This document shows, piece after piece, positions 41,953 through 43,963 of a DNA stretch of 64,000 nt. Every line of letters starts with the position of its first letter. Within the stretch, counting starts at the first letter, position 1. Under the pieces are notes generated by a model that was not told the DNA's origin, searched no databases, and saw only the letters and a program-made list of their open reading frames with translations. Source of the stretch: Natrinema marinum. Lineage in GTDB: Archaea > Halobacteriota > Halobacteria > Halobacteriales > Natrialbaceae. The stretch is taken from NCBI RefSeq assembly GCF_024296685.1, contig NZ_CP100763.1, positions 1,860,001-1,924,000 on the forward strand. Reading direction: 5' to 3'. Both the position numbers and the translations under genes were made by a program.

Positions 41953-42747
41953 TCACTCCGACAGCGCGTCGGACTCGAGCGGCGTCGCCGTCCGCCAGTA
42001 GTGGTCGAGCGCGTCCGCGGCCCACGCGCGCACGGCGTCGTCGTCGGTGTCGACGGAGGCCCGCAGGATGCCTGTCTCGTCACGCAAGAGCAGATAGACG
42101 AGGTCGTCGACGAGCATCACCGCGATCGGCACGCCCTCCTCGCGGACCCTGATCTCGGCACCCTCGGCCGCGAGCAGCGCCTCGAGTTGCCCTCGGAGCG
42201 CCGCATCGTCGGCCAGCGCGTCGATCGCGCTGCGGCCGAACACGCCCCGAAACCGCTGCTCGCCGTCGGTCACGCGCTCGCGGACGACGCTTAGGGTCTG
42301 TTCGTTGAACGTGTGAGAGAACGTCCGGACATCCGCGCCGTCCTCGAGCACGTCGAGCAGCCGTCCCAGCGGCGCGTTCGGCCGGGTCGCGCTCGGGACG
42401 GTGATCGTCGCATCCGCGAGCCGCCGGAGGTCGACGTCCATCGCGTGGGTCGGCAGGTAGTCCACGATATCGCGTAGCTTACCCTCGGTCTCGAGGATCT
42501 CCTGTAGATCGGTAAAGCCCTCCGCGACGAGCCGCCCGGTCGCCGTCGCGACGTAGCCGCCGCCGTCGCGTCTGATCCACGATCGGTCCTCGAAGTCCCC
42601 GAGGATGCGCCCCAGCGTCGCCTGTGAGGCCCCGGTCTCGGCCGCGAGTTCGGTTCGCGTCCGCCGTCCCGCCGAGAGCAACCTGAGCACGTCGACGCGG
42701 TTCGCCGAGAGCGCGAGGAACTCGATCTCCTCGAGTGCCGACTCCAT
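41953..42747 (-). CDS. HTH transcriptional regulator, FilR1/COG4742 type
   Basis: This 264-residue regulator has an N-terminal winged helix at ~8-75 (LALSANRVDVLRLLSAGRRT, ELAAETGASQATLGRILGDFE). The C-terminal ligand/effector-type domain (~120-250; TVPSATRPNAPLGRLLDVLEDGADVRTFSHTF, VREEGVPIAVMLVDDLVYLLLRDETGI) is of the methanogenesis-regulator FilR1 kind found widely in archaea. The ATG at 42747 (MESALEEIEFLALS) is used; the frame upstream is not protein-like. It is divergent from the leader ORF and EamA exporter, whose promoter carries the 8+8 palindrome, so control of the exporter is a natural hypothesis. Confidence 0.85.
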   Translation of the reverse strand: MESALEEIEFLALSANRVDVLRLLSAGRRTRTELAAETGASQATLGRILGDFEDRSWIRRDGGGYVATATGRLVAEGFTDLQEILETEGKLRDIVDYLPTHAMDVDLRRLADATITVPSATRPNAPLGRLLDVLEDGADVRTFSHTFNEQTLSVVRERVTDGEQRFRGVFGRSAIDALADDAALRGQLEALLAAEGAEIRVREEGVPIAVMLVDDLVYLLLRDETGILRASVDTDDDAVRAWAADALDHYWRTATPLESDALSE

Positions 42748-42864
42748 ACCGTCTCCTCGTCCCCCCGCGGTAAACCGCTTTCGCGGCGTGAAATGATTGC
42801 ACGACGTGTGAGGGTGTCGGGGCGGCCCATTGTTTCTCGATCCGCGGCATTTTCTTACCATGAA

Positions 42865-42885
42865 ATAGTTTCTGAACGAAACTAT
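42865..42885. promoter_or_regulatory. 8+8 bp palindrome over the exporter/leader promoter
   Basis: ATAGTTTC-tgaac-GAAACTAT (42865-42872, 42878-42885). The right arm overlaps the TATA-like actataa (42881-42887), centred about 26 nt before the leader ATG at 42911. Occupancy by a dimer would block TBP. Confidence 0.6.
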
Positions 42886-42910
42886 AACCCCGGTGCTCGT
42901 ACGGAGTAGT

Positions 42911-42982
42911 ATGATGATTCCCGTTCTCAGTGTGCCCTCCGTTCCGAGGGCGCAGACGGTACGGACGGAGGTGACGGCGTAA
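42911..42982 (+). CDS. 23-residue leader peptide ORF upstream of the EamA exporter
   Basis: ATG at 42911 to TAA at 42980-42982 encodes MMIPVLSVPSVPRAQTVRTE then VTA. The spacing from the TATA box (about 26 nt) predicts a leaderless transcript starting at this ATG. The exporter ATG follows the TAA with no gap. Its 3' half contains GGAGGTGA (42967-42974), a perfect match to the 16S anti-Shine-Dalgarno, 8 nt before the exporter ATG. It contains an unusual AGG arginine codon and three threonines near its end. No known peptide family is recognised; the coding claim rests on position and start/stop geometry. Confidence 0.55.
   Translation: MMIPVLSVPSVPRAQTVRTEVTA
42932..42971 (+). promoter_or_regulatory. 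alternative RNA hairpins controlling the exporter ribosome-binding site
   Basis: Hairpin A pairs 42932-42939 (GTGCCCTC) with 42946-42953 (GAGGGCGC): 8 bp including one G-U, six-base loop. Hairpin B pairs 42936-42944 (CCTCCGTTC) with 42963-42971 (GGACGGAGG): 9 bp including one G-U, covering most of the Shine-Dalgarno. A and B share 42936-42939 and cannot coexist. When A forms, the ribosome-binding site is free; when B forms it is hidden. Confidence 0.5.
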
Positions 42983-43963
42983 ATGGTCTCCCGCCGCACC
43001 CTCGCGTTCTTCGCGCTCTCGAGTCTGTTCTTCGGCGGGACGTTCGTCGCCGCGAAGGCCGGCCTCGCCTACTTCCCGCCGCTGCTGTTCGTCGCGCTCC
43101 GGTTCGACGTCGCCGCCGTCGTCATGCTGGCCTACGTCGGCTGGACCTCCTCGCGGGCGGAACTGCTCCCGCGGACGCGCGACGACGCCGTCGGCATCCT
43201 CGCGACCGGCGTCCTCTCCATCGGCCTGGCGAACGCACTGCTGTTCGTCGGTCAAGGGTACGTCTCGAGCGCCGTCTCCTCGATCGTCTTCAGCCTCAGT
43301 CCCGTTCTGACCCCCGTCTTCGCCGCGGTGTTGCTCGCCGACGAGCGCCTCTCCGCCCGCGGGGCGGCCGGCATGGGGCTGGGCCTGCTCGGCGTCAGCC
43401 TCGTGGTCAGTCCCGATCCCGCGAACCTGCTGGGCGGGGCCGGCGGCAAGGGGATCCTGTTCGCCGGCGCGGTCAGCGCCGCGCTCGGGGCCGTCCTCAT
43501 CCGGCGGGCCGACAGCGACCTCTCGAGTACGGTCCGCGTCGCCTGGGGGCTGCCCTTCGCCGCGGCGCTGTGTCACTTCCTGGCCTGGTCCGGCGGCGAG
43601 TCGGCGGCGGCGATCGAGTGGACCCCGGAAGCGCTCCTCGCGCTTGGCTACGTCAGCCTCTTCGCGGGCGTGCTCGCCTACATCGCCTACTTCGGTCTCA
43701 TCGACGAGACCGGCGCGATCCGCGCGAACCTGATCTTCTACGTCGTCCCCGTCGTCTCGACGCTCGGCGGCTGGGCGCTGCTCGGCGAGACCGTCGACGC
43801 CCTTGCGGTCGCCGGTTTCCTGACGATCTTCGCCGGCTTCGTCGTGCTGGGCAGCGCGTCGATCGATTTCGGTTCGCTGCTCCCGAGCGTTCTCACCGAC
43901 GCGCCGCGAACCGACGACGAGTCGACGGTCAGAGAGGAACCGCGTGGCTACCGCTCCGATTAG
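42983..43963 (+). CDS. EamA/DMT-family transporter
   Basis: This 326-residue drug/metabolite transporter has ten predicted helices in two EamA repeats: first half ~5-135 ([52 protein letters not shown]) and second ~150-290 ([38 protein letters not shown]). Family members export amino acids, nucleosides or metabolites. The ATG follows the leader ORF stop directly and is preceded by a perfect Shine-Dalgarno, unusual in a genome where first genes are mostly leaderless. The 3' end overlaps pth2 tail-to-tail by 4 nt. Confidence 0.9.

Follow-up and report, generated by a model that had tools for sequence, protein, structure and literature searches.

What a short open reading frame (ORF) is kept for when it stands between a predicted promoter and an exporter gene, and ends exactly where that gene begins, is the question raised by this locus. 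The locus lies in a window of 64,000 nucleotides (the whole stretch of DNA that was analysed) on a 3.77 Mb haloarchaeal chromosome whose genus mates are Natrinema species. The exporter gene (42983-43963, + strand) encodes an EamA/DMT-family protein of 326 aa, with EamA domain in two stretches above the Pfam gathering score (123.8 bits against a cut-off of 28.2, E=7.5e-36). No NCBIfam subfamily was assigned to it, as the best models (YedA, 2A78 and YddG) each scored under their cut-off. An intergenic stretch (42748-42982) separates the exporter from a divergent winged-helix regulator of 264 aa (41953-42747, - strand), in which the Pfam domains HVO_A0261_N (95.2 bits) and FilR1_middle (89.8 bits) both pass their gathering scores of 35 and 27, respectively. 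The regulator is located upstream of the exporter in 29/29 Natrinema genomes and at nearly all other loci examined. A search of the open-access literature for HVO_A0261 returned nothing specific.

The leader mini-cistron is located at 42911-42982 (+ strand) and encodes the peptide MMIPVLSVPSVPRAQTVRTEVTA. A preliminary description had presented it as a 23-codon ORF. That ORF is present, but the start kept by relatives is its second ATG (42914), which gives 22 codons up to the TAA stop at 42980-42982, while the ATG at 42911 is found in few of them. Two other elements of the description hold as given, namely the exporter ATG directly after the leader stop, in the junction TAAATG (42980-42985, + strand), and a perfect ribosome-binding site, the Shine-Dalgarno (SD) motif GGAGGTGA at 42967-42974 (+ strand), which lies inside the leader ORF and is presumed to act in reinitiation. 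Most exporter starts are preceded by an SD motif of 4 nt or more, and the script found none in 11/149 loci. No Rfam match was obtained within 42700-43100 up to E = 1.

To describe the conservation of this layout, loci from 29 Natrinema genomes were compared with 60 from the rest of the family and 60 from elsewhere in the order. A mini-ORF of 11-40 codons ends -3 to +10 nt from the exporter start across these 149 loci, which represent 45 genera of haloarchaea; the counts are not independent because the loci have common ancestry. By script, the coupled mini-ORF was detected in 140/149 loci, against 4/284 for the other two frames of the same sequences; the start codons and anchors are the script's choice, with a few errors possible. 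Seven script misses do have the ORF when read by eye (L111, L112, L114, L137, L138, L175 and L177), three of them behind another promoter, two starting with GTG and two mis-anchored. With these added, the small ORF is kept in 147/149 loci of the 45 genera, which answers positively whether it is retained in related haloarchaea. The leader ATG lies about 27 nt past the TATA box and, in nearly all loci, 24-30 nt after the TATA end, which fits a position at the predicted 5' end of the transcript. All 29 Natrinema genomes have an ATG 24-27 nt past the TATA box that opens an ORF of 22-25 codons, the stop of which touches or overlaps the exporter start. A set of named genomes that partly overlaps the first, including Natronorubrum, Natronococcus, Haloarcula, Halosimplex, Halapricum and Haloferax larsenii, gave a coupled mini-ORF by script in 73/77 cases.

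The junction itself takes many forms. The script counted 41 GTGA, 18 ATGA and 13 TAGATG junctions, among others, and TGATG, TAGTG, TGAATG and GTGGTAG occur at further loci. Junction types differ in many ways within Natrinema alone, and such variety inside one genus agrees with selection for coupling as such. GTG is the start codon of 80/149 exporters, about half, and is described as a poor leaderless start in haloarchaeal reporter studies cited in PMC4983044; frequent GTG starts thus fit reinitiation. The shortest leaders count 11 codons (e.g. MISVSVSEVSR; L160, L161, L163 and L166, Halapricum-type), so that little is left in them except start, SD motif and stop. Two exceptions, L107 and L176, have no leader; there, the exporter's own ATG lies 23-24 nt past the TATA box and the exporter is predicted to be leaderless. 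L107 is apparently Natrarchaeobius chitinivorans (cf. L223), and both loci can be regarded as natural deletion experiments.

The openness of the frame was discarded as evidence by itself, since 78% of shuffled leader interiors remain open when frame and end are fixed. The case rests on the stop positions and on repeated conservation. Coupled mini-ORF junctions are rare in this genome, with 3 matches to a stop-start mini-ORF junction for 406 predicted genes in 464 kb, and 0-2 for each of the control codons. Judged by its conservation, the combination of leader ORF and coupling is far above chance, and the comparison strongly supports a leader ORF that is coupled to the exporter and is predicted to be leaderless and translated.

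The encoded peptide behaves differently from the junction. In Natrinema, dN/dS was 0.91 for the leader versus 0.18 for the exporter, the two being about equally diverged at synonymous sites; the bootstrap interval of the leader pN/pS was 0.66-1.41, and the highest 22-codon window of the exporter reached at most 0.51. Six further clades gave 0.67-1.08 for leaders and 0.07-0.28 for exporters, which are also the ranges over all seven genera, the set consisting of Natrinema plus these six, with four listed clades left out. Leader residues are recognisable within one genus, but between genera the peptides have little in common beyond the residues imposed by the SD motif, and their lengths differ too. 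Over 40 genera, no amino acid is enriched in the leaders beyond z = 2.2 (Thr, z = 1.7). The junction is kept more strictly than the peptide sequence, and selection probably acts on the open frame and the junction, not on the peptide. Near-universal retention combined with free drift of the peptide suggests that the mini-cistron probably hands ribosomes over rather than senses a signal.

Upstream of the leader, an 8+8 bp palindrome over the TATA box, ATAGTTTC-TGAAC-GAAACTAT, had been described and is present at 42865-42885. Its full form is kept in few loci (8/149, and 3/29 in Natrinema), and an 8+8 palindrome as such is nothing unusual. Of the Natrinema genomes, 24/29 retain the N5 core TTTCnnnnnGAAA. 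What is conserved in the genus is the promoter/operator block TTTCTGAACGAAACTATA (42869-42886, + strand), a TATA box with an overlapping inverted repeat, which at 0-1 mismatch occurs at about one site per genome in 28/29 genomes. An operator-like box TTTCTTACCATGAAA (42851-42865, + strand) lies upstream of the exporter TATA box. A matching box TTTCGCGGCGTGAAA (42779-42793, + strand), at a distance of 72 bp from the first, is found close to the promoter of the regulator. In several Natrinema genomes, two TTTCnnnnnnnGAAA boxes in the same orientation flank the divergent promoters at this distance of 72 bp (about seven helical turns), and a third TTTC box lies over the TATA box, 18 bp beyond the 42851 box. 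This arrangement suggests that the divergent HVO_A0261/FilR1-type regulator probably controls transcription, presumably from both promoters.

Taken together, we consider it likely that the leaderless mini-cistron is a ribosome-delivery ORF, which would pass ribosomes to the exporter by termination-reinitiation. The transcript is predicted to begin at, or within a few nt of, the ATG at 42911/42914, and a ribosome would load leaderlessly on the 22-codon mini-cistron. It would terminate at 42982, atop the exporter start, and reinitiate at the ATG at 42983, aided by GGAGGTGA inside the mini-cistron. The divergent regulator would set transcription by acting on the TTTC...GAAA boxes at and beside the TATA box. 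Haloferax volcanii makes no use of the SD motif when initiating de novo in 5'-UTRs; its overlapping genes show strict coupling, and SD motifs aid their reinitiation to varying extents (PMC6728339). A gap of some 20 nt leaves almost no coupling (PMC10666635), whereas E. coli needs no more than the final 15 nt of the upstream gene for it. As the Haloferax SD motif is idle in fresh 5'-UTR initiation, GGAGGTGA should work only in reinitiation; with strict coupling in addition, a transcript from 42911-42914 would give exporter translation by reinitiation.

Bacterial leader-peptide attenuators of the trp or erm type likewise have a short ORF ahead of a regulated gene, with alternative hairpins possible, and the preliminary description had proposed such a switch here. 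Stalling at leader codons (Thr, AGG) or by a ligand would select one of two hairpins, which exposes or hides the ribosome site of the exporter. The window sequence can indeed adopt either hairpin: hairpin 1 (42931-42954, + strand, 9 bp) folds at -27.8 kcal/mol with a pair probability of about 0.74, and the SD-hiding alternative (42936-42971, + strand, 42936-42943 with 42964-42971) at -24.1 kcal/mol with a pair probability of about 0.26. Most Natrinema sequences pair in the lower part of hairpin 1, and the RNAalifold consensus pairing in Natrinema would cover the SD motif, but it includes zero double changes. Comparison with shuffled sequences lends no support to a switch. Excess folding was found neither in the window region (z = -0.45) nor over 140 loci (mean z -0.13; Natrinema -0.52), and the SD motif is not buried beyond shuffled leaders (mean z +0.20). 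For the SD-hiding helix, 54.8% of cells are paired, lower than in its shuffles, and the helix is not conserved. Hairpin 1 stays within shuffles on most measures, with covariation counts that are inconclusive to negative and lend no support to selection on it. Compensatory changes in relatives, which the description had suggested looking for, gave no significant covariation. The two mutually exclusive hairpins can be drawn in this one sequence, and the idea that ribosome progress switches between them finds no support in covariation, folding z-scores or SD burial. Sensing of an aminoacyl-tRNA or ligand via Thr or AGG codons fares no better, with leader codons that are unconstrained (dN/dS near 1) and no amino acid signal over the 40 genera. 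Codon-sensing attenuation was rejected on these grounds: the locus lacks the sensing codons, conserved peptide and supported alternative structures of trp and erm attenuators, and we regard this reading as highly improbable. An RNA switch may operate in one species, yet it is not the object of conservation. In the open-access literature, nothing specific was found on archaeal leader-peptide attenuation.

A functional small protein, for instance a partner of the exporter, would be co-transcribed and coupled, as is often the case for heteromeric partners (PMC10666635), and the recognisable residues inside one genus would agree with it. Sequences and lengths (11 to 40 codons) that are wholly different between genera and a dN/dS near 1 in each clade computed make this extremely unlikely. 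The ribosome-delivery reading itself has two sub-cases. In one, delivery is regulated and exporter synthesis would be tied to a step that varies, for example the capacity for leaderless initiation, termination or the recycling of ribosomes. Order-wide retention despite drift suggests a benefit over a plain leaderless start, to which the many GTG exporter starts may be added, given their poor leaderless performance in the reporter studies noted above. Two lineages (L107 and L176) nevertheless manage without the mini-cistron, and we consider regulated delivery rather unlikely. In the other, the layout is historically entrenched: with the promoter start fixed and an old spacer in place, the mini-ORF would have been forced open because unread 5'-UTRs translate poorly, with no further benefit. 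The neutral peptide, the variable length and the two simple losses that yielded leaderless exporters agree with entrenchment, whereas near-universal retention over 45 genera argues against it; we hold it as a real, if tentative, possibility.

The closest known kind to a ribosome-delivery ORF is formed by the coupled leaderless small ORFs of mycobacteria (Shell et al. 2015, PMC4633059), which keep their linkage while the sequence drifts. Both share leaderless initiation on a small ORF (predicted in the present case), RTGA coupling, a junction that is more conserved than the peptide and a proposed role in ribosome delivery, an idea repeated in a 2025 review (PMC12548453). The mycobacterial system is bacterial and was established with transcription start site and ribosome data by experiment, whereas the present one is archaeal and built on comparative sequence evidence. 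It also differs in being attached to one exporter family across an order, in an SD motif that is thought to be idle in fresh initiation and in the palindromic operator-like block over the TATA box. Coupled genes of haloarchaea (2019, 2023; PMC6728339, PMC10666635) have the same junction types and SD placement in the same class of organism, but the 2019 study (PMC6728339) concerned annotated overlapping gene pairs, whereas the upstream cistron here is an ORF of 11-40 codons without a conserved product. Babski et al. (2016, PMC4983044) listed uORFs in H. volcanii that are likewise short (15-31 aa) and precede normal genes, several of them transporters; these uORFs sit in long 5'-UTRs of 150-250 nt, unlike the ORF described here, which is coupled and predicted to begin at the 5' end. 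The open-access literature searched yielded no description of a conserved leaderless delivery ORF in archaea. A BCCT betaine/choline-type transporter gene elsewhere in the genome (L279:5603-7213, - strand, genome about 2249603-2251213) has a comparable mini-ORF of 27 codons, MPSRSMANGRWRLGQATTCGSIREVRR, along with a strong SD motif and a junction of the ATGA type; it is a possible second case, again at a transporter.

This locus offers a clean evolutionary case of an ORF that is kept open and coupled with its product ignored, in a domain where leader ORFs are little described, and suggests that mini-cistrons are easily overlooked. It also suggests what purpose SD motifs may serve when they play no part in fresh initiation, and the more than 140 natural variants and two loss lineages are material for termination-reinitiation tests. 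A caution follows as well, as a hairpin drawn in a single GC-rich leader is no evidence of an RNA switch. It is conceivable, albeit rather doubtful, that haloarchaea keep, order-wide and for one exporter family, a peptide-independent translational control point that delivers ribosomes only. If true, exporter synthesis would track the leaderless-initiation or ribosome-recycling state of the cell, besides the transcriptional regulator.
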